Part shown: piece after piece, positions 1-34,350 of the stretch
Position numbering within the stretch: position 1 is the first letter of the stretch
Layout: every line of letters starts with the position of its first letter
Source: Paludibacteraceae bacterium
Lineage (GTDB): Bacteria > Bacteroidota > Bacteroidia > Bacteroidales > Paludibacteraceae
DNA length: 64,000 bases
NCBI GenBank assembly: GCA_017471175.1
Contig: JAFUVS010000015.1
Coordinates: 62,001-126,000, forward strand
Direction of reading: 5' to 3'
Made by a program: the position numbers and the translations under genes
The notes under the pieces: model-generated
Database searches by the model: none
The model's input: only the letters and a program-made list of their open reading frames with translations
What the model was told of the DNA's origin: nothing

Positions 1-698
1 CCCGCATACTTAAAGCCTCGCGATTTCTTGCCTCCTCGTGCCGCAAATTCCCATTGAGCCTCTGTGGGGAGATTAAAACTAAGTCCGGTAATAAGATTAA
101 GACGGCTGATAAAGGTGGTGATGTCTTGATACGATACCAGATTAACGGGCTGATTAACACCAATGAAGAAAGAACGGTTCTCGCCCATAACGGCGTTCCA
201 CAATTCCTGCGTTACTTCGGTTTGCGAAATGTAGTAGGACGAGAGCTTGACCACGTGTGAGCGTTCGTTTTCGGAAGCGTCCGTACCTTGCTCCAACGTG
301 GCTCCCATCACGAACGTACCGCCTTGTACATAGACCATCGTAAAAGAAATACCATTCGCCTCAATCACTTTGGAGAGCGGCATAAGGGTTACTTTGACCA
401 TCACATCGTGGGAGAACTCGCCCCATTCTTTGAGGGCATCCCAATAGACGACATTGTGTCCCTCAATGCTTTGTGAGCCGAAATTACCGCTCAACTCATA
501 AATAGGACGAAAAACATACGAATTGTCAACGGCAACGGAGATGAACGTTTCGATCTGCTCCGTGAGGTCATATTCGATGCGGAATCGGGTGTCTTCTTGC
601 TCTAAAGTAACATTGCTGACGGCTTGCGACCACGCGATAGCGTACACAAAGAAAAGGAGCGAAAGAATGGTCAAACGATGAATGAATGGTCGTTTCAT
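1..698 (-). CDS. FGE-sulfatase (SUMF1) fold protein, 3'-truncated by window edge
   Basis: About 232 codons are visible; the C-terminus lies beyond base 1. The protein opens with a signal peptide (MKRPFIHRLTILSLLFF, then AIAWSQ). A beta-sandwich-type N-terminal domain follows, carrying the Bacteroidota pattern IxYxL...G.FG...V.G.NVVYWDAL. The SUMF1/formylglycine-generating-enzyme fold starts at 'MVYVQGGTFVMG' and runs through 'PTEAQWEFAARGG'. It is a clear paralogue of the 2376-3398 gene (same domain order, many identical blocks). It lies 24 nt after the DUF4384-like gene on the same strand, so it is probably the last visible gene of that transcription unit. Family members without the active-site cysteines act as binding modules, but the diagnostic C-terminal part is not in the window, so catalysis cannot be judged here. 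ATG at 698. Confidence 0.85.
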   Translation of the reverse strand, partial: MKRPFIHRLTILSLLFFVYAIAWSQAVSNVTLEQEDTRFRIEYDLTEQIETFISVAVDNSYVFRPIYELSGNFGSQSIEGHNVVYWDALKEWGEFSHDVMVKVTLMPLSKVIEANGISFTMVYVQGGTFVMGATLEQGTDASENERSHVVKLSSYYISQTEVTQELWNAVMGENRSFFIGVNQPVNLVSYQDITTFISRLNLITGLSFNLPTEAQWEFAARGGKKSRGFKYA

Positions 699-722
699 AA
701 TAGACGTTACGGGCGGGTTGAT

Positions 723-1547
723 TTATTGACGTATCTCTAACAGAATGGACTTGACTTGCATTTCGGCATCGCGTGTACGGCTTTTGGACAGCCATTCCTG
801 GTACTTCTTGAAGTCCAATCCTCGAAGACCGAAGGCTAATTCCTCATCCAACGGGATGGTGAACGGATTGGGCGAAAAGATAAAATGCAGCTGGTTAAAT
901 TCAACGGGTTTAAGGGCAGTCAGAATGATTTCGTTGTTTTTGCTTTGGTCAAGCATATTCCGATAGACCGTATTGGCACGGATTTCCTGAATGCCTTTCG
1001 TATTATACACAGAGGGGAGCAGACGTATTATATTGTTGTCTTCATCTTGGAGATAGACCGCGAGAAAGCCGTCCTTGGGTGAGAGGAAATCGATGTTCAG
1101 CAGATCTTTATGTTGGAATTGCGTGGTCAGGATGCACTTCCCGTTATCGTCACACCGCTTGGTTGTGATTTTGAGTTCCACTTCCACCCGTTTGATTTCC
1201 TGTGCTTTGCCCCAAACTTTGACGAAGATGGCTGTTTCGCCGGAGACGGAGTCGATACGGTATCGCACAAGCGGGGCTTTGGTGTCTTGCAGCCATTTGC
1301 CGTTCACTTCCGAATTGCCGAAGATGGTCATTTTTTCGTTGACGTGTCCGCTGGTTTGGGTGACGGACTCACCAAAGGCTTGACGCATGGCTTTTACTCT
1401 CGCTCCCTCGATGGCTTTTGTGCGTGCTTCCAAGCGCGATTCGGTTTCGGGGATATGGTAAGTAAAGTCGGCACGGACGGTTTTCACCGTCTGTGCCTGA
1501 ATGATACCTGCGCCGGTGAGAAGCAAAAGTATGATACACTTCTTCAT
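723..1547 (-). CDS. DUF4384-like exported protein of the caspase/sigma locus
   Basis: 274 residues with a signal peptide (MKKCIILLLLTGAGIIQAQ). The N-terminal half has a helical 'EARTKAIEGARVKAMRQAFG' segment typical of LPP20/FlgT-N-like domains. The C-terminal half has 'GFLAVYLQDEDNNIIRLLPS', the signature of DUF4384, a small domain often found beside or fused to caspase-family proteases (family knowledge). The start codon lies 44 nt after the LPP20-like gene's stop, and the next gene on the strand is an FGE-fold protein. I infer a periplasmic or surface partner of the caspase locus. No catalytic motif is visible and the molecular role is unknown. Confidence 0.7.
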   Translation of the reverse strand: MKKCIILLLLTGAGIIQAQTVKTVRADFTYHIPETESRLEARTKAIEGARVKAMRQAFGESVTQTSGHVNEKMTIFGNSEVNGKWLQDTKAPLVRYRIDSVSGETAIFVKVWGKAQEIKRVEVELKITTKRCDDNGKCILTTQFQHKDLLNIDFLSPKDGFLAVYLQDEDNNIIRLLPSVYNTKGIQEIRANTVYRNMLDQSKNNEIILTALKPVEFNQLHFIFSPNPFTIPLDEELAFGLRGLDFKKYQEWLSKSRTRDAEMQVKSILLEIRQ

Positions 1548-1591
1548 CGCTGTATGGTCTTATCTGAATGCTTTTTTGTGTCGGGTTGATT

Positions 1592-2263
1592 TTACTTAAC
1601 GCCCCAAATTTCGTCTAACTCTTTGTGGAGTTTCTTACCGTCTTTTTCGAGTTCCTGCTTAACGATTTGTTTGGCGGCTTGCAGGGCTATGTTACGGTCG
1701 TAGAAGATGCGTGTTTGCACTTCATAGAGTTTGCCGTCCATACGATAGACTTCCACTACGGGAATGACGTTGGTGAGGCGTTGTGCGATGAGTTGCTTGC
1801 CAGCCTGAACGGTTTTGGAGATAGAGGCTGCATCGGTAGAAGATATCTGCTCATTGGCGCGTGTGTTCTCCACGAGGGCGGTCACTTCGGTGGCAATCAT
1901 ACCGGCGAGGTCTTCCTTGGCGAAAGCGAGTGCCTGTGCTTTGGCGGCGGCATACGATTCGGCTTTGGCGGTCATCTCACCCATAAAGTATTTGGGCGAA
2001 TTGTCATCGTTGTATTCGTACTGCATCCGCTGCGACTTTTCTATCTGTTTTTCGAGCGAGAGGGCACCCACATTGACCTGCCAACCTTGTTTCTTGAACT
2101 CCTTGGCTTGTTTTTTGATGTCGCGACCTACTTTGGCTTTCAGCTCCTTGTCAGACATCTTGGTGATGGCTTCACGTTCTTTACGTTGGTCTTTGTTGTT
2201 CTGCGCATAACCGGTACTCGTCAGGAGCAACAAACTGAGCGCAAATAAAATAACTTTTTTCAT
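1592..2263 (-). CDS. LPP20-like exported protein
   Basis: 223 residues with a signal peptide ending around GYAQ (residue 21). The body is charged and helical. 'SYAAAKAQALAFAKEDLAGMIATEV' followed by a 'VVEVYRMDGKLYEVQTRIFYDRN' beta segment resembles LPP20-family lipoproteins, though no lipobox cysteine is present, so it should be soluble periplasmic. It is preceded by a 112-nt gap holding an ECF-style promoter (2326-2355) nearly identical to the one upstream of the TPR gene. It is probably the first gene of a unit with the DUF4384-like and second FGE-fold genes. Function unknown. Confidence 0.65.
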   Translation of the reverse strand: MKKVILFALSLLLLTSTGYAQNNKDQRKEREAITKMSDKELKAKVGRDIKKQAKEFKKQGWQVNVGALSLEKQIEKSQRMQYEYNDDNSPKYFMGEMTAKAESYAAAKAQALAFAKEDLAGMIATEVTALVENTRANEQISSTDAASISKTVQAGKQLIAQRLTNVIPVVEVYRMDGKLYEVQTRIFYDRNIALQAAKQIVKQELEKDGKKLHKELDEIWGVK

Positions 2264-2325
2264 AGTTGTACTGATATTTATTGATTTGTTAGTTTCTATT
2301 CAGGCGTTTTCTTGTGCTTTCTACT

Positions 2326-2355
2326 TCTTTATATCCGAAAGGTAAGAAAAGTAAC
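2326..2355 (-). promoter_or_regulatory. Candidate ECF-sigma promoter, copy 1
   Basis: Read on the minus strand: GTTAC, 15 nt, then GATATAAAGA, about 63 nt upstream of the LPP20-like ATG. The same two blocks with identical spacing occur at 3996-4025. The layout (short GTTAC-type -35, about 16 nt, -10 block) is what ECF sigma factors use, and an ECF sigma is encoded at 4053-4604. Assignment to that sigma is inference. Confidence 0.55.
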
Positions 2356-2375
2356 GGGGAAAAGTGATTTTTTTA

Positions 2376-3398
2376 TTATTTTTCGTAATCGGGGTATATG
2401 ACGATACGTAATCCCGTATCCGCCATACGGTTAGCAGGCGAGAAATGGAAGCGTGCATTCACTTGGCTTTCGTTTGCCTTGTATCGCCAACTGCCTCCTC
2501 TTGCTACGCGGTGCTCGCCTTCGACAGGTCCTTGGGGATTAACGGCAAATTCTACTTGGTAGGGAGCGTACCAATCGCGACACCACTCGAGCAGGTTACC
2601 GGTCATATCGTATAGACCGAGTTCATTAGGTTGTTTGTCTGCCACTTGACTAACGGGGTTATAGTCATTATCTTCAGTGGGTGTTCGTCCTACGTAAGCC
2701 ACCTCGCCGACTTTATTGCTGCCTGCAAATCGGTAGTTATGGGTACGGATACCTCCTCGTGCCGCATATTCCCATTCTGCTTCGGTCGGGATAGCGATAT
2801 GAAGGCCGGTGAGTTGGCTCAATTGCTGCACGAAATGCAGGGCATCCTCATAGGAAACAAGACTGACGGGCATTGTTCTTTCGGTTACAACGGGTCGTTT
2901 GTCCGCCACGACGGCTTGCCACTGGCGTTGCGTTACCTCAGTGGTAGCGATATAAAAGGAATTGACCGTTACCCGATGGGGTGTATCGGTAGCGGGAATT
3001 GTCTTGGCATCGCCAGCTCCCATCGTATAGGTTCCCCCTTGCACATAGACAAAGGTGAAAGGCACATCGGCTACCATAAACTGCTTGACCGAATCGGGGA
3101 CGACCACTTTGACGGTAACATCGGCTGTGAACTCTCCCCATTCGCCCAGTGCATCCCAATAGACGGTGTTTCGTCCGGATACCGTCTGCTGCCCGTAGTT
3201 ACCGGTGAGTTGCTTGATGGGTACGTAAGTTCTTCCGGAGTCCTTGGAAGCATAAAAAAACGTTTCCATTTGTGCAGAGAGGGCGTAGTCGATACGCATA
3301 CGCGTACTTTCCTGCGACAATACGACATCGGCAACCGCCTGCGCAGTAAGAGTAACCGCACAGGCGAGAAGACATACGGAAGACAGGAGTCGCTTCAT
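2376..3398 (-). CDS. FGE-sulfatase (SUMF1) fold exported protein, non-catalytic type
   Basis: 340 residues. Signal peptide 1-19 (MKRLLSSVCLLACAVTLTA). Residues about 25-105 form the Bacteroidota N-terminal domain with 'RIDYALSAQMETFFYASKDSG' and 'VSGRNTVYWDALGEWGEF'. Residues about 115-335 form the SUMF1 fold: 'FVYVQGGTYTMG', 'EVTQRQWQAV', 'PVSLVSYEDALHFVQQLS', 'IPTEAEWEYAARGG', 'GNLLEWCRDWY', 'RVARGGSWRYK', 'NRMADTGLRIVI'. The paired active-site cysteines of true formylglycine-generating enzymes are absent near the C-terminus, so it is more likely a binding or structural module, like GldK or the C-type lectin-like SUMF1 proteins. It begins 6 nt after the TPR gene, so the two are probably cotranscribed. 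Confidence 0.85.
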   Translation of the reverse strand: MKRLLSSVCLLACAVTLTAQAVADVVLSQESTRMRIDYALSAQMETFFYASKDSGRTYVPIKQLTGNYGQQTVSGRNTVYWDALGEWGEFTADVTVKVVVPDSVKQFMVADVPFTFVYVQGGTYTMGAGDAKTIPATDTPHRVTVNSFYIATTEVTQRQWQAVVADKRPVVTERTMPVSLVSYEDALHFVQQLSQLTGLHIAIPTEAEWEYAARGGIRTHNYRFAGSNKVGEVAYVGRTPTEDNDYNPVSQVADKQPNELGLYDMTGNLLEWCRDWYAPYQVEFAVNPQGPVEGEHRVARGGSWRYKANESQVNARFHFSPANRMADTGLRIVIYPDYEK

Positions 3399-6804: not shown

Positions 6805-7872
6805 TCAACAACTAACGAATTGGTTGAGGAATCTCAGGTCGTTCTCGGAGAAGAGACGGAGGTCTTTGACGCGGTACTTGAGGTTGGTGATACGCTCTAT
6901 ACCGAGTCCGAAAGCGTAGCCGCTGAATACCTTGCTGTCTATTCCGCAGGCTTCGAGGACATTGGGATCGACCATACCGCAGCCGAGGATTTCGACCCAG
7001 CCGGTCTGTTTGCAGAAGCCGCAGCCTACTCCGCCGCATATATGGCAGGAGATGTCCATTTCGGCACTGGGTTCCGTGAAGGGGAAATAGGACGGGCGAA
7101 GACGTATCTTAGTCTTGTCGCCGAACATCTCTTTGGCGAAGTAAAGAAGTGTCTGTCGGAGGTCTGCATAACTGACGTTTCGGGCGATATACAGTCCTTC
7201 GACCTGATGGAAGAAGCAGTGTGCGCGGGCGGAGATGGCCTCGTTGCGATAGACGCGCCCCGGGCAAAGCACACGAATACTATCCTGTTGTCCGTTACGC
7301 AGCCGTTCGGCGGCTTCGGTCATTACGCGAGTCTGTACGCTGCTGGTGTGTGTACGAAGGAGTACATCAGTAGGACGTTGTTCGCCCTCTTCTTTTTCAA
7401 TGAAGAACGTATCTTGCATATCGCGTGCGGGGTGTTCGGGTGCGAAGTTGAGCAATCCGAACACGTGTCGGTCGTCTTCTATTTCGGGACCGTCAGCTAC
7501 GGTAAAGCCGATTCGGGAGAAGATGTCTATTATTTGTTCGCGCACGAGCGAAAGGGGATGACGAGTACCGAGTTCGATGGGATCGGGTGTGCGGGTCAGG
7601 TCTTGGCGCACTTCGGCTCGTGCCATAGTCTGCTCAACCGACTGACGCAACTGCGCCATACGCTCCTCTGCGGCTTGACGCAAACTATTCATTGCTTGCC
7701 CGAATTGTGCTTTTTGCTCTTTGCTGAGGGTGCGGAACTCGTTGAAGAGTTCGCTCACCTCGCCTTTCTTAGAAAGGTATTTGATACGCAATGCTTCCAC
7801 TTCTTCAGCCGAACCGGCTTGCATCTCTTGTACGCGTTTTTGCAAATCGTCTATTCGTTCTTGTAAAGTCAT
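6805..7872 (-). CDS. pheS: Phenylalanine--tRNA ligase alpha subunit
   Basis: 355 residues, slightly longer than the usual 330-345. It charges tRNA-Phe with phenylalanine as an alpha2beta2 complex. N-terminal coiled coil about 1-95 for tRNA binding ('VEALRIKYLSKKGEVSELF'). The class II core follows with motif 1 ('RTPDPIELGTRHPLSLV'), motif 2 ('GRVYRNEAISARAHCFFHQVEGL') and motif 3 ('YAFGLGIERITNLKY'). 'FTEPSAEMDISC' is the typical substrate-pocket segment. The cysteines in 'CHICGGVGCGFCKQTGWVEILGCGMV' are usual for the bacterial form. pheT is not in the window. The downstream glycosidase starts 31 nt after the stop. Confidence 0.97.
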   Translation of the reverse strand: MTLQERIDDLQKRVQEMQAGSAEEVEALRIKYLSKKGEVSELFNEFRTLSKEQKAQFGQAMNSLRQAAEERMAQLRQSVEQTMARAEVRQDLTRTPDPIELGTRHPLSLVREQIIDIFSRIGFTVADGPEIEDDRHVFGLLNFAPEHPARDMQDTFFIEKEEGEQRPTDVLLRTHTSSVQTRVMTEAAERLRNGQQDSIRVLCPGRVYRNEAISARAHCFFHQVEGLYIARNVSYADLRQTLLYFAKEMFGDKTKIRLRPSYFPFTEPSAEMDISCHICGGVGCGFCKQTGWVEILGCGMVDPNVLEACGIDSKVFSGYAFGLGIERITNLKYRVKDLRLFSENDLRFLNQFVSC

Positions 7873-26193: not shown

Positions 26194-26201
26194 AGTAATT
26201 A

Positions 26202-26657
26202 TTATTTTTTCTGTCTTGATTTCAAAAAAGCAGTACACCCCGCCAGTACATCGCGATAGGTTGCCTCAAAATCGCCTGTGTACCACGGATCCGCCACATC
26301 GCGGTTTTCTCCTGCCCACTCCTTCAGACGGGACACTTTGCCTTGTGTATCCCCACCCGTAATATAGTTCAGCAGACGGATATTGCTGCGATCCATACAG
26401 ATCAGATGGTCGTAATAGCGATAGTCCTCTGCTGTAACCTGTCGGGCAGCCCGAGAGGAGAAAGGAATACCTTTTTCCCGCAATTTGCGACAGGCCGGCG
26501 GATACATATCGTTGCCTATTTCTTCGGTGGAAACGGCAGCAGAATCAATCTGATAATCGCCGGAGCATCCCGCCTGCGCAGCAAGATACTTCATAACGAA
26601 CTCCGCCATCGGCGAGCGGCATATATTCCCGTGACAAAGAAAAAGTATTTTAGTCAT
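26202..26657 (-). CDS. Low-molecular-weight protein tyrosine phosphatase
   Basis: 151 residues from ATG 26657. P-loop CX5R with Cys8 and Arg14 in 'LFLCHGNICRSPMAE'; the general-acid loop is 'DPWYTGDF'. Family members dephosphorylate tyrosine on proteins, often BY-kinases of capsule export. It is 8 nt from pyrE. Its first two codons (MT) coincide with the end of repeat copy D of the MmeI-like 3' end, so its native upstream region has been replaced by the repeat array. Confidence 0.93.
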   Translation of the reverse strand: MTKILFLCHGNICRSPMAEFVMKYLAAQAGCSGDYQIDSAAVSTEEIGNDMYPPACRKLREKGIPFSSRAARQVTAEDYRYYDHLICMDRSNIRLLNYITGGDTQGKVSRLKEWAGENRDVADPWYTGDFEATYRDVLAGCTAFLKSRQKK

Positions 26658-26708
26658 AATCGGCGAAAAACCATACGCCGCCATCACGGCGCGGGCGTTG
26701 TCTTGGTG
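26652..26708 (-). repeat. MmeI-like 3'-end repeat, copy D (truncated, fused to phosphatase)
   Basis: 19 codons matching the penultimate part of the MmeI-like gene (HQDNARAVMAAYGFSPIMT). It starts 13 nt after the AlbA_2 gene stop. A 30-nt block is identical to copy A. The match ends inside the phosphatase ATG-ACT, where the native copies continue with GAA (MTE). Confidence 0.9.
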
Positions 26709-26721
26709 GGTACGATAGATT

Positions 26722-28083
26722 TTATTCTACTTTTACTATCCAATAACCTGTTTTGTTGGAACCTAAGTGTTCTACTAAATTCAGTTGTTTGAGTATAGAC
26801 ATTTCCCGTTCAACGGTTCGTAGTCCTACCCCCAATAATTTTGCTAATTCTTCTTTTGTCAGTCCTTCTTTTATACCGCCATTTATACCGCCACTTTCTT
26901 TGATGATTGTCAATATATTTTGCTGTCTATTAGTAAGTTGTTGCTTATTTATACCGCCATTCACACCGACATTCTCTGTTATTTTCCGTCGTTGTATGAT
27001 AACTTCTACTCCGCCGAAGGCAGTACGGAAGACAGGCATTGGCAGATTGGATGCCGCAAAACCGTCATATATTTTCTTATATCCGCGTCCCCACGCTTCT
27101 ATAAATCCTGCTTTGTTGAAAACTTCTGCGATATTAAGGTTGCGCGGTTTGGAAGCATGTTTGTGCATAAGTGTTTCTATTGTATAGTCTTCTGGCAGGT
27201 TGCCTTCGTTCCATAGTTCGATATGGTCCTCAAAAATGCGCATTTGAATAGGCGCACCGGTGTATTGTTTGTGGACTATAGCGTTATATAGAATCTCTCG
27301 GAAAGCATCTTCGGGTATTTCCAACTCCTCAACGCGTTGCATACCTTCATAGCGGATGTAAGAATGCAAGTATTTATCCTTAAGCAGTTCAATTACGCGA
27401 TCTGCCATTTGCAGGATATTGCCCTCTATAACATTCTGTGAGCGCAGGTCTGCTTCATCTGTTCCAAAACGTCCTATTTTGAATTGCACTCCTGTTAAAT
27501 AGCGCAATGGATCTTTGGCAAAGAGCAATATGGCGGCATATTTAAGTTTGCCGTCATCCGAAATGAGGCGAAGGTTTTCTAAAACTTCTTGGGGCGTATC
27601 GCCGATAGAACTTGGTGATAATCGTTTTGCGGTTATGCTCTGTTTGACGAAATATGCAATAGCCTTAGGGTCTATGCAATCAATAGTTGCATTGTCGTGA
27701 TAGACATCATCCCACTGTTTACCCATTTTTTTGAGGATAAACTCTTGAAGAGCCGCCCCACGCAATTCTTGCTTGGTAGAGCCTGAGCGTATGAAGTATT
27801 GAGTGTTATACGAAATAGGCACACCGCTTTGCTCAACAACGATGGCGATAATATCTTTGTTGTCTTTACGTTTGTGGCTAACCTCTACAACTATTCCCAA
27901 TGTGTCGCGAACCTTATTTGGCAGTGTTTCCAATAGTTTTCTCACGTCAGTTACTCCCACAGCATTCCCCTTATCATCAATACCAATATAGAGAGTTCCA
28001 CCTTGGGCGTTAGCAAAAGCGCAAATTTCTTTTAGAAATTCGTCTTTCCATAGCGTTTTATATTCGGTATTTTGGTTTTCCAT
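26722..28083 (-). CDS. AlbA_2/ATP-binding (divergent AAA-4 type) protein with winged helix
   Basis: 453 residues. The N-terminal AlbA_2 domain is at about 5-130: 'TLWKDEFLKEICAFANAQGGTLYIGIDDKG' and 'YFIRSGSTKQ'. The central HATPase-like domain is at about 250-370: 'FREILYNAIVHKQYTGAPIQMRIFEDHIELWNEGNLP' and 'AWGRGYKKI'. A C-terminal winged-helix region has 'LTKEELAKLLGVGLRTVEREMSIL', preceded by two GGINGGI-type repeats. Such proteins are common in restriction and other defence loci and are often called transcriptional regulators; the mechanism is not settled. It begins 12 nt after repeat copy C's stop codon and is followed by copy D. Confidence 0.85.
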   Translation of the reverse strand: MENQNTEYKTLWKDEFLKEICAFANAQGGTLYIGIDDKGNAVGVTDVRKLLETLPNKVRDTLGIVVEVSHKRKDNKDIIAIVVEQSGVPISYNTQYFIRSGSTKQELRGAALQEFILKKMGKQWDDVYHDNATIDCIDPKAIAYFVKQSITAKRLSPSSIGDTPQEVLENLRLISDDGKLKYAAILLFAKDPLRYLTGVQFKIGRFGTDEADLRSQNVIEGNILQMADRVIELLKDKYLHSYIRYEGMQRVEELEIPEDAFREILYNAIVHKQYTGAPIQMRIFEDHIELWNEGNLPEDYTIETLMHKHASKPRNLNIAEVFNKAGFIEAWGRGYKKIYDGFAASNLPMPVFRTAFGGVEVIIQRRKITENVGVNGGINKQQLTNRQQNILTIIKESGGINGGIKEGLTKEELAKLLGVGLRTVEREMSILKQLNLVEHLGSNKTGYWIVKVE

Positions 28084-28095
28084 AAGGAATAATTA

Positions 28096-28209
28096 TTATT
28101 TTTCAGTGAGTTTTTGATACATCTTAAACAACTCCGCCACACACTCGCTTTCAGTCATCTTTGGCGAAAGGCCATACGCCGCCATCACAGCGCGGTTGTT
28201 GTCTTGGTG
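28096..28209 (-). repeat. MmeI-like 3'-end repeat, copy C
   Basis: 38 codons including a stop. It reads like the last 38 codons of the MmeI-like gene with few changes (AAYGLSPKMTESECVAELF, ending YQKLTEK). It starts 10 nt after the RhuM gene stop and lacks any upstream MmeI sequence. Confidence 0.92.
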
Positions 28210-28219
28210 GGTTTTCCTG

Positions 28220-29266
28220 TCATTTCTTTCTGTCTTGCACTCTGTCTTGCACTTCTTTTTGCAGGGCAACTAATGTTTCGTTGTCTGAAGCATTGAGCAC
28301 TTTCCTATCCTGTTCGTCTGCTTCAGCGGCAGCGAGAGCTTTGCGACGGGCATTGAACCGGTCGTAGATAGCAGCCACATGCTCCTCCATCTGCTTGTTG
28401 CTAACCGAACCGGCTCCTTGCAACACTGCTTTGTTTTGAAAATTAAGCAGCGAATCGACCGTTTCACGCCAATAGCGCAAAGTCAGGTCTTTCCGCTCAC
28501 GAACGCGTAACTCGGCGGTATCAAGAAATAGGGTTGTCAGTCTGTTAAGTGTGTCTATTTCGTTGTGATGCAAGTAGTTTTTGGCAATGAAGATATCTTG
28601 CTTGCGTACTACACTGCCTTTCCACGAAGTCAGTGCCATATTAGGCTGTGATGCATCTGCGCGACTGACGATTATTTCCGCAGCGGTTTGCCCGGTAACG
28701 GCATAGAGCAGTTTGTTTTGTGTCTCGGCAAAGAACATCTGTGTGGCTTTATCGGTGGCATCATAGTCACTGCTCAATGCAAGCAAGTCGCGGACTTTTT
28801 GGTAGAAACGCTTCTCTGATGCGCGTATTTCTCTGACACGCTCTAAAAGTTCGTCAAAATAGTCGGGTCTGCCGTCAGGGTTCTTGAGTCTCTCGTCATC
28901 CATAGTAAAGCCTTTGACGAGATATTCCTTGAGGTGCTGATTTGCCCAAATCCGGAATTGTGTACCACGCTTGCTGCGCACACGAAAACCAATGGCAAGA
29001 ATCATATCAAGCGAGTAGAATGTAACATTGTATTGCTTACCATCAGCAGCAGTTGTTAAGTAATTCTTAATAACTGAATCTTGCTTTAATTCTCCATCTA
29101 ACAGCACGTTAGCAATGTGCATACTTATGTTTGGTATGGAGGTATCAAAAAGTTCAGCGAGTTGATTTTGGTTCATCCACACGCTCCCGTCGCGGGCATA
29201 GAGCACTACACTTGCTCGTCCGTCAACGGAGTTATAAATAATGATACTACTTTCTTCTTTTGGCAT
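28220..29266 (-). CDS. RhuM-family (virulence/defence-associated) protein
   Basis: 348 residues, the usual RhuM length. The opening is 'VVLYARDGSVWMNQNQLAELFDTSIPNISMHI', a helix-turn-helix-like region, followed by 'YSLDMILAIGFRVRSKRGTQFRIWANQHLKEYL' (the RhuM signature, related to phage KilA/Bro-type N-domains) and a helical C-terminal part. RhuM genes are frequently embedded in type I and type IIG restriction loci, with a suspected toxin or regulatory role. It begins 16 nt after repeat copy B and is followed by copy C after 10 nt. Confidence 0.9.
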   Translation of the reverse strand: MPKEESSIIIYNSVDGRASVVLYARDGSVWMNQNQLAELFDTSIPNISMHIANVLLDGELKQDSVIKNYLTTAADGKQYNVTFYSLDMILAIGFRVRSKRGTQFRIWANQHLKEYLVKGFTMDDERLKNPDGRPDYFDELLERVREIRASEKRFYQKVRDLLALSSDYDATDKATQMFFAETQNKLLYAVTGQTAAEIIVSRADASQPNMALTSWKGSVVRKQDIFIAKNYLHHNEIDTLNRLTTLFLDTAELRVRERKDLTLRYWRETVDSLLNFQNKAVLQGAGSVSNKQMEEHVAAIYDRFNARRKALAAAEADEQDRKVLNASDNETLVALQKEVQDRVQDRKK

Positions 29267-29282
29267 AATATAGAGTATCCTT

Positions 29283-29402
29283 TTACTTTTTGCTATTCAC
29301 TATTTCTTGATACATCTTGAATAACTGCGCCACGCACTCCGATTCGGTCATCTTCGGCGAAAAACCATACGCTGCCATCACCGCGCGGTCGTTCTCTTGG
29401 TG
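29283..29402 (-). repeat. MmeI-like 3'-end repeat, copy B
   Basis: 40 codons including a stop. It matches the MmeI-like C-terminus up to 'LFKMYQ' and then diverges (EIVNSKK). It starts 13 nt after the DUF1016 gene stop codon. Confidence 0.92.
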
Positions 29403-29415
29403 TGGGTTAAAAAGT

Positions 29416-30492
29416 TTAAGAATTATTGTTATGTGCTAACAGGAAGTGTTGTTTTTGTTGTTCTATTTCACGTCTTAATTCTTCTTGTGTTGGCAAATAT
29501 GTAAGATATTTAGCAGCAAAAAGTTGGTCATTACTATTAAGAGTTGAATAGCGTGCTACATCTTCATCCGTATCTGCGCATAAAAGTATTCCAAGAGTTG
29601 GATTATCTCCATCAGTACGTTTCAGTTCGTCATACATCTTTACATACATATCCATCTGCCCCACATCTTGATATCGGATTTTAGATGATTTCAAATCAAT
29701 GAGTACAAAACACTTGAGCAAATAATTATAAAAAACGAGGTCTATATAATAATCCTCTTTTTCAGTCTGGATATGCTGTTGTCTCGCTACAAAAGCGTAC
29801 CCTTTGCCTAATTCGATTAAGAATGTTTGCAGATGGTTGAGAATAGCTGTTTCTAATTCCGTTTCGGTGTATGATGAGTTGTTTGTAAAGCCTAAAAATT
29901 CGGCTATGACAGGACTTTTGATGTATTCAAACTTATCTTGCAAAGGCGCGGTAATCGCTTGCATCTCTCGTTCTACGACTTCTTTATTATGAGAGGCTAA
30001 TCTGCGATAGTAATACTGCGAACTTATGTTCCGTTGCAATGTACGCGATGACCATGCTTGGGAAAGAGTTTCGTGAGCATACCACTCCCTTGCATCTTTA
30101 TCTTCCACTTGCATAAGTACACGGTATTGAGTCCAAGACAATAGGGCGCGAGATTTTCCACTCACTGCGTGGAAAATGTCAGGGAAAGCTCTGTAAAATT
30201 GTAAAAATGTGTAAAGATTTGATTTTGTAAATCCTTTACCATACTTTTGTGTAAGTTCAATGGATAATTGAGTAATTAGGCTTTTTCCATAGTCTGCTCT
30301 ATTGCCTTTGAGAATCTCATTTTCCATTCTCTGACCTAATAACCAGTTACGTTGTACTAAAACCGTGTTAACAACTGTATATGCAGCCGACTGCGCCGTT
30401 TCAATAATCATACAAGAATCATTGAAAATATTCTCAGTCGGTTGAATATCCGTCAATTCATTTTTTATACTTATTCGTTCCATTGTGTCCAT
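29416..30492 (-). CDS. DUF1016/YhcG-type PD-(D/E)XK nuclease-domain protein
   Basis: 358 residues. The N-terminal DUF1016 helical domain includes 'QRNWLLGQRMENEIL', 'YGKSLITQLSIELTQKYGKGFTKSNLYTFLQFYRAFP' and 'LSWTQYRVLMQVED'. The C-terminal nuclease fold has 'DYYIDLVFYNYLLKCFVLIDLKSSK', with catalytic Asp, then Asp-x-Lys. Members accompany restriction-modification systems. Its ATG overlaps the last base of the MmeI-like stop codon (TAATG), so it is translationally coupled to that gene. Repeat copy B lies 13 nt after its stop. Confidence 0.9.
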   Translation of the reverse strand: MDTMERISIKNELTDIQPTENIFNDSCMIIETAQSAAYTVVNTVLVQRNWLLGQRMENEILKGNRADYGKSLITQLSIELTQKYGKGFTKSNLYTFLQFYRAFPDIFHAVSGKSRALLSWTQYRVLMQVEDKDAREWYAHETLSQAWSSRTLQRNISSQYYYRRLASHNKEVVEREMQAITAPLQDKFEYIKSPVIAEFLGFTNNSSYTETELETAILNHLQTFLIELGKGYAFVARQQHIQTEKEDYYIDLVFYNYLLKCFVLIDLKSSKIRYQDVGQMDMYVKMYDELKRTDGDNPTLGILLCADTDEDVARYSTLNSNDQLFAAKYLTYLPTQEELRREIEQQKQHFLLAHNNNS

Positions 30493-30605
30493 TATTTTTG
30501 AGTAAGTTGTTGATACATCCTAAACAACTCTGCCACGCACTCCGATTCGGTCATTTTCGGCGAAAAACCATACGCCGCCATCACGGCACGGTCGTTGTCT
30601 TGGTG
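30492..30605 (-). repeat. MmeI-like 3'-end repeat, copy A (genuine gene end)
   Basis: Last 38 codons of the intact MmeI-like gene (HQDNDRAVMAAYGF...YQQLTQK, stop). The homology with copies B, C and D begins sharply at CACCAAGA. Confidence 0.95.
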
Positions 30606-33605
30606 CGCTTTCCGCAGTTCAGGGGGCATCGTTACTTCATCGTAGAGGTCTGCAAGGCTGCTGTCGGGGTATTTGGCACGAGCATCCAAAATGGCTTGCG
30701 CTGTTTGCTCTATTTTGGTTTTCTGCTCATCGGTCGGCTGACACCACGGGAAGTTGTTATAGACAATGTCTTTGCTATAGCGGTAGTCTGATTTCAATCG
30801 TCCACACACTACACGCATCCAAGCCATGTGTACATTACTCGTCAGCACACCGAAATGATACAGCGTGGCGGAGGGGATGAACTGCATCGCATCGTTTACC
30901 ATTATGTCGGGCAATAAAAAGCCTATTGGGACATAGCGTCTTCTCTCACTGCTAACTCTCGGAATTACAATATAATCCGATTGTGAATAACGCACTTCTT
31001 GAAAAAGCCATGCTGTATTAGCACTTTCTCTTGTTGCTGCTTTGGGACTTGCAAGTCGATATTCTCTGACTTTGTTTATTCGGTCTAATAAGAATGGGCT
31101 TTTGCGTATTTCGGCAGGAGATACGCCAACTAACCATAAACAATATCGCATTTTGTTGTTTATAAACTCTTCAGAACCATATATGCGTTTAATATATTTC
31201 GCTATTTCAGGTTCTCTCGTAATTATTTCATTATATTCATCTTCTTTGAGGAATAAAAAACCTCCATCTGTCGGCTTACTGCCATATATCATTTCCGGCA
31301 CATCGCATAAAGGCTTATTTCTGCTCTCTATCCACACATTCTGCGCGTCAATAAGATAGGGATTGATATTGGCGGCTTGTATCACTTGGTTGTCGGAGAG
31401 GTAGATTTTCTTTTCGTATCCCTTCGGTATCCCTATAGTATCCGTATAGTTGGAAACCGCACTCGGGGACGAGTGCGTACCCACCGAGAAACCTATAATC
31501 ACGCAATGCACATGGGCTTTGATATCCGCTTCGCTGTCCCAGCGGAATGTACGATAGGCGAAGTCAATCTGCAAGCCGAATCGCTCAAACAGCGGTTGCC
31601 AGATGGCTGCCACCTGTTCCCCTTGGGTGATGGAGTTGGTGCTGACAAGGGCGGCACGGACATGCTTTGCGGGTGTGTTTGCAGCAGCCGCACTCGGGGA
31701 CGAGTGCGTACCCTGTGCCACGCGCATCAACTCGGCGGCTTTCCAATACCATGCGGCCACATAGTCTATCTTGCCTGCTGTCTTGTATGGTTTACCTTTC
31801 TCGTCCACATAGATAGAGAGCATTTCTTCTTTCTGCTCTTTCGATTGAAGACTATACCCCACAAATGGCGGGTTGCCGATGATATAGTCGGGGTAATTTA
31901 TTTGTCCACAATTATCATCAATTATTCCACAATTATTTTCTTGCTCTAATTGTTGGTTAATTGTTGGTAATTGTTGACCAAACAGCCTTCCCCAATCCAT
32001 ACGCAGGGCATTCCCCTCCACGATATTAGCGTTGGTCTTGAGCGGCAGAAAGTCCATTGCTTTGCCCGCAATCGCGGAGGTCTGCTGCATCATCTGGTTC
32101 TCCGCTATCCACAACGCCGTCTTGGCTACCGTACAAGCAAAGTCGTTGATTTCTATACCATAGAACTGACTGATATGCACCTTTATCAGCGTGTCGAAAG
32201 TCAGTATGTTCGCTCCGCCGTACATCGCCCGTATCACCTCGTTCTCCAATCGCCGTAGCGACAAGTACGTCTCCGTCAGGAAGTTCCCCGAACCGCAGGC
32301 AGGGTCGAAGAAAGTGTGCGAAGCCAATTTGTCTTGGAAGGCGGCGAGGGCTTGTCTTGTGGCGGGCGATAGTGGCGAACGATTCCGATCGTTCGTATTT
32401 GTTCCGGAATGTTTGGAAACGTTCTCTACTATCCCCTCAAACTCCGCCCGCAGGTCATCGAGGAACAGCGGATCAATCACCTTGTGGATGTTCTCGATAC
32501 TCGTATAGTGCATACCGCCGCTGCGACGCGTTTCAGGGTTCAGAGTCGATTCAAACACCGCTCCGAAGATAGTCGGACTAATCTCACTCCAATCGAAATC
32601 GGCAGAGGCTTTGTCGAGTAGCAGTTGTTTGAGTTCGTCGGTGAATTGGGGGATGATAATAGGTCGTGCACCCCGTGCATTGGAACGATTGAAACGATTT
32701 TTATCTTCACAATCGTTCAAATCGTTCAAATGTGGCGCAGCATCACGACTTTCTCCAAATAGTCCGCCATTGACGTATGGAAACGCGGCGAGGTCTTCGT
32801 CCAAATACGGATCGCGCTCGTTGAGTGGGGTGTCCAGCACCTCAAAGAGGTCAATCAAGGCTTTGCGGATATGCTTGGGTTGGAATTGAGCAAGATAGTC
32901 GTGAAAGGCTGTTTTGGATTGGAATAGCCCCGAATCTTCAGCATAGAGGCAGAAAACCAACCGCACACAAAGTATATTGAGACTGCGCAGGATGTCGTCC
33001 GTAATAAGGCTTTCGACTTTTGACTTTTGACTTTCGACTACTCCGTATTGCTCCAACAGTTTATCGTAGATAACACCCACCAACTCGCCCGCCTTGACCG
33101 ACACTTCCATCTCGCGTTTGAGATGCTCATTACCCTCATCCACAAGGAACTGCAAGCGGTAGTATTCCTTGCCAAGATTGGCAAGGGCTATCTTCTGCGG
33201 CTCGCCGTTGGGTTGCTCCATATCATACACCCAGAACTCGCGGAAATTGCAGGTTACGATCCACCGCGGACGCTGCGAGTAGGGCAACTCGGCGGCATAG
33301 CGTTTAGCTTGTTGGAAGGGATTGAGAAGCGAGCCGTCTGACTGTTTGATAGGTGTACCGAGGTCTTTCTCTATGCTTTTCTGCTCAATCATCACGTGCG
33401 TGCGGGGGATATAGGCATCAATAAAAGAGGTATGGTCAAGCCGAACCTGCTGCTCAAAGTGCAGCCATTCGTCCACGTGTTCCACACCAAAGACCTCCGC
33501 CAATAGGGTAGTCCAAAAGATTTGGCTATCTCCTTTCTCGTAGCCTTTGCCTTGCCATCTTGCGGCAAAGGCTTCGGCGGCACGTTGTTGCTGAGTAGTC
33601 GTCAT
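30492..33605 (-). CDS. MmeI-like (type IIL/IIG) combined restriction endonuclease-DNA methyltransferase
   Basis: 1037 residues from ATG 33605. The N-terminal nuclease has Asp63, Glu74 and Lys76 ('FIDAYIPR...IEQKS'), the D-x10-ExK pattern of MmeI-type enzymes. A helical connector follows; then a gamma-type N6-adenine methyltransferase with motif I 'FFDPACGSGNFL' (about 432) and motif IV 'IIGNPPFVGYS' (about 575), a target-recognition region at about 700-950, and a C-terminal domain ending 'PPELRKAHQDNDRAVMAAYGF...'. One chain would both cut and protect DNA. Several in-frame low-complexity or palindromic inserts interrupt it (see repeats). It lies 49 nt after pyrF, and its 3' end is duplicated three times downstream. 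Confidence 0.92.
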   Translation of the reverse strand: MTTTQQQRAAEAFAARWQGKGYEKGDSQIFWTTLLAEVFGVEHVDEWLHFEQQVRLDHTSFIDAYIPRTHVMIEQKSIEKDLGTPIKQSDGSLLNPFQQAKRYAAELPYSQRPRWIVTCNFREFWVYDMEQPNGEPQKIALANLGKEYYRLQFLVDEGNEHLKREMEVSVKAGELVGVIYDKLLEQYGVVESQKSKVESLITDDILRSLNILCVRLVFCLYAEDSGLFQSKTAFHDYLAQFQPKHIRKALIDLFEVLDTPLNERDPYLDEDLAAFPYVNGGLFGESRDAAPHLNDLNDCEDKNRFNRSNARGARPIIIPQFTDELKQLLLDKASADFDWSEISPTIFGAVFESTLNPETRRSGGMHYTSIENIHKVIDPLFLDDLRAEFEGIVENVSKHSGTNTNDRNRSPLSPATRQALAAFQDKLASHTFFDPACGSGNFLTETYLSLRRLENEVIRAMYGGANILTFDTLIKVHISQFYGIEINDFACTVAKTALWIAENQMMQQTSAIAGKAMDFLPLKTNANIVEGNALRMDWGRLFGQQLPTINQQLEQENNCGIIDDNCGQINYPDYIIGNPPFVGYSLQSKEQKEEMLSIYVDEKGKPYKTAGKIDYVAAWYWKAAELMRVAQGTHSSPSAAAANTPAKHVRAALVSTNSITQGEQVAAIWQPLFERFGLQIDFAYRTFRWDSEADIKAHVHCVIIGFSVGTHSSPSAVSNYTDTIGIPKGYEKKIYLSDNQVIQAANINPYLIDAQNVWIESRNKPLCDVPEMIYGSKPTDGGFLFLKEDEYNEIITREPEIAKYIKRIYGSEEFINNKMRYCLWLVGVSPAEIRKSPFLLDRINKVREYRLASPKAATRESANTAWLFQEVRYSQSDYIVIPRVSSERRRYVPIGFLLPDIMVNDAMQFIPSATLYHFGVLTSNVHMAWMRVVCGRLKSDYRYSKDIVYNNFPWCQPTDEQKTKIEQTAQAILDARAKYPDSSLADLYDEVTMPPELRKAHQDNDRAVMAAYGFSPKMTESECVAELFRMYQQLTQK
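31457..31482. repeat. 26-nt palindromic insert, copy 1, in MmeI-like gene
   Basis: Contains GCACTCG-GGGA-CGAGTGC, a 7-bp stem with a 4-nt loop, followed by GTACCC. It is identical over 26 nt to 31688-31713 and encodes GTHSSPSA in the same frame at both sites. Confidence 0.9.
31688..31713. repeat. 26-nt palindromic insert, copy 2, in MmeI-like gene
   Basis: Exact copy of 31457-31482, also read in frame as GTHSSPSA, next to an alanine-rich stretch (AAAANTPA). Confidence 0.9.
32377..32394. repeat. Short palindrome in MmeI-like gene
   Basis: GAACGAT-TCCG-ATCGTTC, 7-bp arms, inside a non-conserved stretch of the gene (SKHSGTNTNDRNRS). Confidence 0.7.
32683..32727. repeat. Inverted repeat with 17-nt arms in MmeI-like gene
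   Basis: Arms 32683-32699 and 32711-32727 are reverse complements except for two bases, each containing two CGATT/AATCG units. The product segment is the polar LNDLNDCEDKNRFNRSN, inserted without a frameshift. Confidence 0.8.
33011..33040. repeat. TTTTGAC heptad repeat inside MmeI-like gene
   Basis: Degenerate 7-nt tandem (TTTCGAC/TTTTGAC) encoding VVESQKSKVES in frame. It has the same style as the intergenic heptad spacers elsewhere in the window. Confidence 0.75.
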
Positions 33606-33654: not shown

Positions 33655-34350
33655 TCATACGCCAAACTCTTCGCAGCAACGGCGGTAGGCTGCCACAGGA
33701 TCCGGTGCTGCCGTAATGGGTCGTCCCACCACGATATAGTCGCTGCCTATCTCTCGCGCCATAGCGGGCGTGGTAACACGCTGCTGATCGCCTTTATCAC
33801 CATCGGCAAACCGTATGCCGGGCGTAACGCATAGGAAATCACTGCCGCACGCTTTCTTGACCATCCCTGCTTCAAGGGGCGAACAAACGACTCCGTCCAA
33901 ACCCGACTGCTTGGCGCAACGAGCATAATGCTGTACGCAATCTGCCACTTCACCCGGCACAAGTATGTCGCTATTCATACGCTCTTTGTTCGTGGAGGTG
34001 AGTTGCGTTACCGCCAATAGGATAGGTCGTGTCCCGTCCTGTCGCGTCAGTCCTTCCAACGCCGCCGTCATCATCTCACGCGTACCGGCAGCGTGCAGAT
34101 TCACCATATCCACATCCAAGTGCGACAAGACCGCCATTGCCTTACGAACCGTGTTCGGTATGTCGTGCAACTTCAAGTCAAGGAAAATCCGATGCCCGCG
34201 CGCCTTAAGGCAGCGGACAATCTCCGGTCCCTCGGCATAGAACAGTTCCATACCAATCTTTACAAACGGCTTCTCGTCCGTGAACCGGCTCAAAAAGTCA
34301 TACGTCTGCGATGCCGAAGCAAAATCGCACGCAATAATCACATCTTTCAT
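33655..34350 (-). CDS. pyrF: Orotidine-5'-phosphate decarboxylase
   Basis: 231 residues, the short (type 1) OMP decarboxylase. It turns OMP into UMP. The catalytic segment '[14 protein letters not shown]' carries the Asp-Lys-Asp triad; 'VTPGIRF' and 'YIVVGRPIT' are the phosphate-binding ends. It starts 1 nt from the pyrD stop codon. The next gene on this strand is the MmeI-like restriction gene, so the pyr unit is interrupted here. Confidence 0.96.

Follow-up and report, generated by a model that had tools for sequence, protein, structure and literature searches.

How does a row of single defence-type genes come to stand behind a restriction gene, each of them followed by a piece of that same restriction gene? 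This question is raised by a 64-kb stretch of Paludibacteraceae contig JAFUVS010000015.1 (the whole 64,000 nt analysed here, referred to as the window), in which the last ~38 codons of an MmeI-like restriction-methyltransferase gene recur after the YhcG, RhuM and SLFN/AlbA_2 genes. The order is MmeI-YhcG-RhuM-AlbA_2 with a copy after each downstream gene; we call the native end D and the displaced copies, in this order, C3, C2 and C1 (Table 1). The host is probably an uncultured ruminant-gut bacterium. We consider it probable, though well short of settled, that the MmeI 3' end anchors an array of defence-type genes which works without an integrase and was built by crossovers within a conserved core together with sequential displacement.

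The repeated MmeI 3' end and its linkage to neighbouring genes

That the repeat array is real can be stated with very high confidence. A repeat scan returned one family of three 123-nt copies (the other two 74% and 85% identical to the reference) and one of four 64-nt copies (the others 83-86%), and these are the sole direct-repeat families of at least 55 nt in the window besides two unrelated pairs at 31-3176. At the protein level, the displaced copies match the native end with E = 1e-20 (C2), 4e-19 (C3) and 2e-6 (C1), and C2 and C3 also match Pfam MmeI_C (E = 1e-4, 22.7 bits, and E = 5e-5, 23.8 bits, respectively), below the 27-bit family cut-off. A tblastn search with the whole MmeI protein against 26200-30490 found no recognisable MmeI body sequence between the copies, everything else having E > 0.5. 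Each copy starts shortly after the stop codon of the gene upstream (RhuM-C2, 10 nt; AlbA_2-C1, 13 nt; YhcG-C3, 13 nt), and the next gene starts 16 nt after the stop of C3, 12 nt after that of C2 and at -1 nt relative to that of D, which overlaps the YhcG start (TAATGG). The last 6 nt of C1, ATGACT, read as also the LMWPc start (about 26657). An earlier reading by a model, made from the letters alone (the original prediction), had given these positions, this spacing of 10-13 nt behind one-gene modules, the closeness of the next gene and the lack of upstream MmeI sequence, all of which stand. Its statement that the copies begin at CACCAAGA holds in the window but not as an invariant border, with junctions in other species extending 6-10 nt further upstream (by eye).

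The repeat consists of two parts that differ in their linkage. The core is a 96-nt segment that begins at CACCAAGA and reaches the MYQ codons; the remainder, up to the next start codon, is the tail. Among 13 ends and copies, identity over the 60 nt that precede the next gene was 88% if the downstream gene was the same (15 pairs) versus 51% otherwise (63 pairs), with 0 of 5000 label shuffles as extreme; the upstream gene had no effect on these 60 nt (p 0.62). When L019 and L032 (other RAYT and BroN subtypes) were dropped to leave 11 ends and copies, the tail after the MYQ codons was 97% identical for the same downstream gene (12 pairs) versus 40% (43 pairs; 0 of 5000 shuffles), whereas the core was 90.3% versus 89.3% identical (p 0.22). 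Over 15 copies, which include shortened ones and leave out the ~36-nt copy L011b, the core tracked neither the locus (0.882 within versus 0.879 between, p 0.40) nor the upstream gene (p 0.95). The 5' junctions do track the upstream gene (0.83 for the same gene, 7 pairs, versus 0.61 for different genes, 29 pairs). Because both flanks of the core stay with their own gene while the core tracks neither, the core is the likely place of partner exchange. The module had been predicted to be a gene plus the copy behind it, and this does not hold as the sole unit: the tail follows the downstream gene, so that the unit reads as an MmeI end plus the gene following it.

The manner in which the copies diverged bears on their age. 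The ratio of nonsynonymous to synonymous divergence (pN/pS) between copies of the same locus was 0.00-0.50 in 11 pairs and at most 0.29 in nine of them, the two highest values involving the shortened C1, and synonymous divergence (pS) in the core was 0.15-0.46. We read this pattern as indicating that each copy diverged while it was a working MmeI terminus, until recently. A fresh duplication is disfavoured because a fresh target duplication would leave near-identical flanking copies, and a long-decayed tandem gene is disfavoured because an old pseudogene would lose its protein sequence.

Cassettes common to different species

We compared the window array by blastn with 18 chosen other loci. 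The segment C3-RhuM-C2 (28096-29402) has a 1307-nt counterpart of 94.6% identity in L027, and the match stops precisely where C3 and C2 end on their outer sides; in L027 this block follows MmeI and precedes a RAYT-like gene, whereas its neighbours in the window are YhcG and AlbA_2. For L011 and L060 the match runs from the start of C3 into RhuM (94.7% over 399 nt and 93.9% over 821 nt, respectively), both with MmeI upstream, and MmeI-RhuM loci of other species share the C3 tail. In all of these loci, as in L028, the genes across the repeat are other than those in the window. The L028 match, 96.5% over 1460 nt, begins inside D, takes in YhcG and breaks off within RhuM at the contig end, with BroN upstream; in this locus, which belongs to a different species from the window, BroN sits between MmeI and the YhcG-RhuM pair. 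The window and L028 may thus form a before/after pair for one added module, seen in another species.

The MmeI proteins of these loci are far less similar. Identity to the window protein is 66% for L011, 67% for L036 and 56% for L060, and, over the ends only, 58.5% for L028 (last 217 residues) and 78% for L027 (last 100 residues). Because cassette DNA is 93.9-96.5% identical, versus 56-78% for MmeI residues over the parts compared, cassettes appear to move between MmeI backbones, and modules are apparently shared horizontally while the main MmeI gene differs. The central idea of the original prediction, that the MmeI 3' end is a recombination point at which single genes are stacked, is supported by shared cassettes with borders at the repeat ends, by varying module number and order, and by the shuffled core.

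We propose that incoming DNA from another MmeI locus carries the conserved 3' core, its own tail and one downstream gene, and would recombine with the resident array through a crossover between homologous sequences within the ~96-nt core. The MmeI body already in place would thereby acquire another terminus together with another downstream gene, and its previous terminus would be pushed one place on as a displaced copy, along with the gene behind it. RecA-type recombination is the presumed agent, and the order of events is one that we infer. The first junction between the 3' side of a gene and a core may have formed roughly once in each gene family, through an illegitimate joint such as homology-facilitated illegitimate recombination would produce. 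Such an array would let single-gene phage-defence candidates gather behind a restriction gene. The parts of this scheme that the data support directly are the displaced ends, the sharing of cassettes across species, the linkage of the tail to the next gene and the absence of any such linkage for the core.

Several points weigh against this proposal. The tracking statistics use 11-15 hand-picked related copies, so that the shuffle values are indicative and are not probabilities, and the lack of tracking by the core may reflect limited power. The comparisons are all between species, with gain or loss of a module not directly seen, all sequences come from draft metagenome assemblies, and the 217-residue comparison of L028 includes the variable recognition domain. 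Arrays are uncommon, occurring in 6 of the 76 genus genomes with an MmeI end, and the 5' borders considered below show more regularity than would be expected if illegitimate joints formed at random.

The families found in the array also occur elsewhere. The closest RhuM, YhcG and AlbA_2 relatives in the genus outside arrays are single genes in other places, and no MmeI 3' copy was found near non-array relatives in 20 regions, 14 of which (L167-L180) surround the closest RhuM, YhcG and AlbA_2 relatives (best E 0.24). Because these relatives lack an MmeI 3' copy, the array gene families also move by other routes.

The features of the window are collected in Table 1. Five Pfam domains (PF20464, PF20465, PF20473, PF20466 and PF20467: N-terminal, helical spacer, methyltransferase, target recognition and C-terminal) are all above cut-off in the one MmeI-like protein, which is also PADLOC REase_MTase_IIG at 1110.5 bits. 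By its domain set the gene is a predicted type IIG/IIL restriction-methyltransferase. Its open reading frame (ORF) is open up to a TTG at 33665, and the likely ATG, read by eye, is at 33605. The gene also contains an identical 26-nt direct repeat (31457-31482 and 31688-31713, starts 231 nt apart), and the window genome holds a second long-frame MmeI on contig C18. By PADLOC profile, YhcG, RhuM and the BroN of L028 (PDC-S13) are single-gene phage-defence candidates, PDC being presumably short for phage-defence candidate, and AlbA_2 has only weak pAgo-type matches. The ORFs around the array read as biosynthetic and metabolic genes, only some of them confirmed by Pfam.

Table 1. Features of the MmeI array and its flanks in the window
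Feature	Position	Strand	Basis
LMWPc gene (low molecular weight phosphatase), flanking host gene	26202..26657	-	Pfam PF01451
Shortened terminal copy C1, 57 nt, after AlbA_2	26652..26708	-	Repeat scan and protein match
SLFN/AlbA_2 - HATPase_c_4 gene, third in array	26722..28083	-	Pfam PF04326/PF13749
Displaced MmeI 3'-end copy C2, after RhuM	28096..28209	-	Repeat scan and protein match
RhuM gene, second in array	28220..29266	-	Pfam PF13310; PADLOC PDC-S05
Displaced MmeI 3'-end copy C3, after YhcG	29283..29402	-	Repeat scan and protein match
DUF1016/YhcG PDDEXK nuclease gene, first in array	29416..30492	-	Pfam PF06250/PF17761; PADLOC PDC-S02
Native MmeI 3' end D, CACCAAGA to stop: 96-nt core and tail	30492..30605	-	Repeat scan
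MmeI-like restriction-methyltransferase gene	30492..33605	-	Pfam (five MmeI domains) and PADLOC type IIG
pyrF, flanking host gene upstream of MmeI	33655..34350	-	Pfam PF00215

Alternative origins of the array

Two alternatives assign the 5' borders to an enzyme. In the first, which we regard as unlikely, an enzyme (a nicking nuclease or a RAYT-type Y1 protein) would cut at the Lys-Ala-His-Gln codons and fix most 5' borders, and homologous recombination would then shuffle the cassettes between species; if so, the MmeI 3' end would be a portable attachment site, an integron-like defence-collecting platform on coding sequence that works without an integrase. In the second, which strikes us as improbable, the array is a site-specific cassette system, with an unseen integrase or HUH (RAYT-type Y1) transposase that cuts at the same codons and inserts one-gene cassettes, the core being the attachment (att) site. 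A recurrent 5' border near these codons speaks for an enzyme. Relative to CACC, homology starts at -6 for RhuM, YhcG and AlbA_2, -10 for RAYT, +3 for L031 and +13 for BroN (by eye), and in a post hoc simulation at least four of six borders fell in one 5-nt window with p = 0.012 for a 72-nt target and p = 0.0002 for 300 nt. The second copy in Treponema L111 also starts near these codons, in an alignment uncertain by several bases. The borders nonetheless vary by 23 nt, and the conservation of the MmeI end does not stop at the recurrent border.

Among the genus loci examined, 85 MmeI ends or copies have an ORF that starts within the next 400 nt; for 19 of these the longest such ORF is a RAYT-like gene, within 60 nt in 12 of the 19. 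REP-like palindrome arrays lie beside RAYT-like genes directly behind MmeI ends in L010, L014 and L016. These neighbours would suit a site-specific system, although the RAYT-like gene may be just another cassette gene. The RAYT-like protein of L036 falls below curated cut-offs (NCBIfam NF047646, 42.8 versus 80 bits; Pfam Y1_Tnp, 21.3 versus 23), that of L031 has no Pfam match, and the RAYT-like protein has no PADLOC match. In the window assembly, which is 78% complete, there was no Y1_Tnp match at E 0.01, a search that RAYT-like proteins, scoring near or below cut-off, could escape; the sole Phage_integrase (PF00589) match is on C17 and the sole Resolvase (PF00239) match on C20, with neither on the array contig, and DDE transposases were not searched.

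Hairpins in the core tell both ways. Two of four copies have one somewhat stabler than synonymous shuffles (z -1.6 and -2.0), and the other two do not follow (+0.4 and -1.1), so that the set is not consistent. A hairpin serving as the left end of a Y1 transposase was tried as a candidate, given that the third positions of two Ala codons pair in 45 of 69 versus 32 in shuffles. It was rejected: the count ignores relatedness, mostly reflects two codon haplotypes, and goes with inconsistent folding energies against synonymous shuffles. Because synonymous sites of the core have diverged and neither an integrase nor a resolvase match lies on the contig, we regard a site-specific cassette system as unlikely, and with it the unseen recombinase of the original prediction, if taken to be site-specific.

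Insertion with long target duplication, by which each gene would have entered at the MmeI end and duplicated a ~115-nt target, is an explanation to which we give little credence. Its geometry of target, gene and target fits, and published comparisons suggest that restriction-modification systems insert in this way, with long and variable target duplications (PMC3031569). The cores of a single locus, however, average only 88% identity, no more than those of different loci, and their divergence is synonymous-biased. The window tails differ as well (over the last 60 nt, spacer included, 0.44 for D and C3, 0.55 for C3 and C2, and 0.56 for D and C2), and the cassettes are common to several species together with their flanking repeats.

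No more credible is an origin from full-length MmeI genes in tandem, each trailed by another gene, whose bodies were later deleted. The genus does have MmeI remnants, with left borders that are scattered (L007, L009, L010, L035, L046, L047 and L050), and tandem full-length MmeI genes are present in L198, from another family of the same order. Against this stand the lack of recognisable body sequence between the window copies and the finding that, for four of the six upstream gene families, the copies begin at nearly the same place. A scan of 80 genus regions (a subset of the genus matches) and the window found no tandem full-length MmeI genes, a decay series that would have told against modular insertion; likewise, far from being absent at other loci, the repeat recurs on the array contigs of six species. 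Elsewhere in the genus, body-deleted remnants suggest that decay and array formation both occur. Finally, that the copies are kept as a regulatory or translational signal for the next gene, which moves with its own leader, would fit tails and spacers that follow the downstream gene and the overlap of the MmeI stop with the YhcG start, but is very hard to believe when the core is present too, yet not tied to the downstream gene, and when the 14 regions around non-array RhuM, YhcG and AlbA_2 relatives have no detectable MmeI 3' copy.

Distribution of the arrays and likeness to known systems

We searched 178 genomes of the genus with the 43-residue MmeI end. It is present in 76 of them, with at least two matches on one contig in six: G000 (the window), G018, G065, G080, G109 and G201. 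Their gene orders vary. G201 reads MmeI-RhuM-copy-RAYT-copy-host, G109 reads MmeI-BroN-copy-YhcG-copy-RhuM (contig end), and G080 reads MmeI-RAYT-short copy-host; G018 has MmeI-RhuM fragment-RAYT-short copy-host and G065 has MmeI fragment-RAYT-another ORF-copy-RhuM-like. Displaced 3'-end pieces lie between downstream genes in the window, L027 and L028, with one displaced copy each in L011, L036 and L031. The host genes behind the arrays, read by eye from ORFs, differ among loci, and around LMWPc no neighbours are conserved in six relatives, so that an empty site at the array edge cannot be defined.

Beyond the genus, PF20467 matches in 69 of 393 genomes of the order. Across the order, at least two short-frame copies on a contig with a full MmeI occur only in the window genome; G436 has short-frame PF20467 matches on two other contigs, at contig ends, and rescanning 15 further regions of the order found no arrays. 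From the named genome collection, the best 80 loci of at least 406 relatives were kept. Among these 80, the nearest are Paludibacteraceae or Bacteroidales metagenome-assembled genomes, many from ruminant samples, and the two-ended loci are L089 (same contig as L011), Treponema L111, Ruminococcus L131 and L127. The second copy lies 340 nt after MmeI in L111 and is longer in L131, and L127 consists of two converging MmeI genes at contig ends. Treponema L111 is a possible array in another phylum. At 6950-7650 of this locus there are two MmeI 3' ends, and behind each of them come a GTGGTATA(A)T stretch, similar in both, and the start of a small gene. No second copy was found on plasmids (24 records, one place each) or in 15 loci on viral contigs, and a search of phage DNA gave one weak match.

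Other MmeI ends in the genus have neighbours of their own. In the window genome, an MmeI 3' fragment outside the window (L007 9674-9763; G000:C21:131673-131762) lies between an LptC-like gene (by reading) and tRNA-Pro; a short ORF follows it, and no MmeI gene is among the ORFs listed around it. In L046 and L047, from two species (G144 and G198), an MmeI 3' fragment is fused to a truncated upstream ORF, fragment and ORF being the same in both; a 326-residue gene of the same kind follows in each, and its L046 protein has no Pfam, PADLOC or NCBIfam match. An internal MmeI deletion in L035 (7745-7957, G166) is joined at a repeated AAAGCCCAC (by eye), with a RAYT-like gene directly after it. A CoiA-like gene stands 5 nt past the MmeI stop in L039, L066, L069, L070 and L072 (in L070 with a weak Pfam match), and an ADP-ribosylglycohydrolase-like gene stands at the MmeI stop in L008, L040 and L075.

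Defence genes cluster beside restriction systems, and the ways in which single genes are added and exchanged there have so far mostly been inferred from co-occurrence. The MmeI arrays keep scars of each exchange, so that the order, a possible donor and the breakpoint can be read, and gain or loss can be tested in strain collections. Among the open-licence PMC papers listed, none links genes of the MmeI type to RhuM, nor to 3' ends that are repeated. Defence genes can lie inside another immune system, one example being DarTG2 between hsdS and hsdR, described as a potential recombination hot spot (PMC12255303); a 2024 preprint by Payne et al. reportedly treats the same subject. In that example, as here, a restriction locus hosts candidate defence genes; the guest lies between subunit genes there, and here the guests stand behind a single-gene system, separated by 3'-end copies.

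Integron cassettes resemble the present modules as ordered one-gene units, the newest presumed to be next to the anchor gene, and differ from them in that there is no integrase on this contig and the repeat is coding, with synonymous sites not conserved. Insertion of restriction-modification genes with long target duplication, reportedly described by Nobusato et al. in 2000 (Kobayashi's group), is alike in placing a gene between long direct repeats of the target at restriction-modification loci, and unlike in that the repeats here are divergent and shuffled rather than fresh. In Rhs loci the tails encode variable toxins. Rhs and contact-dependent inhibition (CDI) loci have a constant 5' part with displaced 3' ends strung behind it; in contrast, the MmeI tail is conserved and it is mainly the following gene that varies.

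The closest precedents come from arrays of the type VI secretion system (T6SS), where older immunity genes are displaced backwards as effector-immunity modules are added (Kirchberger et al. 2017, PMC5361080). The authors propose homologous recombination and homology-facilitated illegitimate recombination, draw a comparison with integrons, and point to Rhs loci, where orphaned 3' regions form strings (PMC5361080). The original prediction knew of no cassette system built on a coding 3' end; these T6SS immunity arrays and Rhs orphan 3' ends are close relatives in design. T6SS modules likewise enter at the end of the main gene by recombination and displace older downstream genes without specific integration sites, the arrays are mosaic between strains, and one described case keeps the 3' end of the displaced gene. 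The present arrays differ in that a restriction enzyme serves as the main gene and its body can stay in place, the repeat is a short conserved tail and not a toxin domain, and the cargo consists of unrelated single-gene defence candidates rather than cognate immunity genes. If the arrangement is general, restriction genes would host a library of defence genes driven by recombination, for which T6SS immunity arrays are the analogue. On this comparison, the MmeI arrays look to work like T6SS displacement arrays, with a restriction gene as anchor and defence candidates as cargo.

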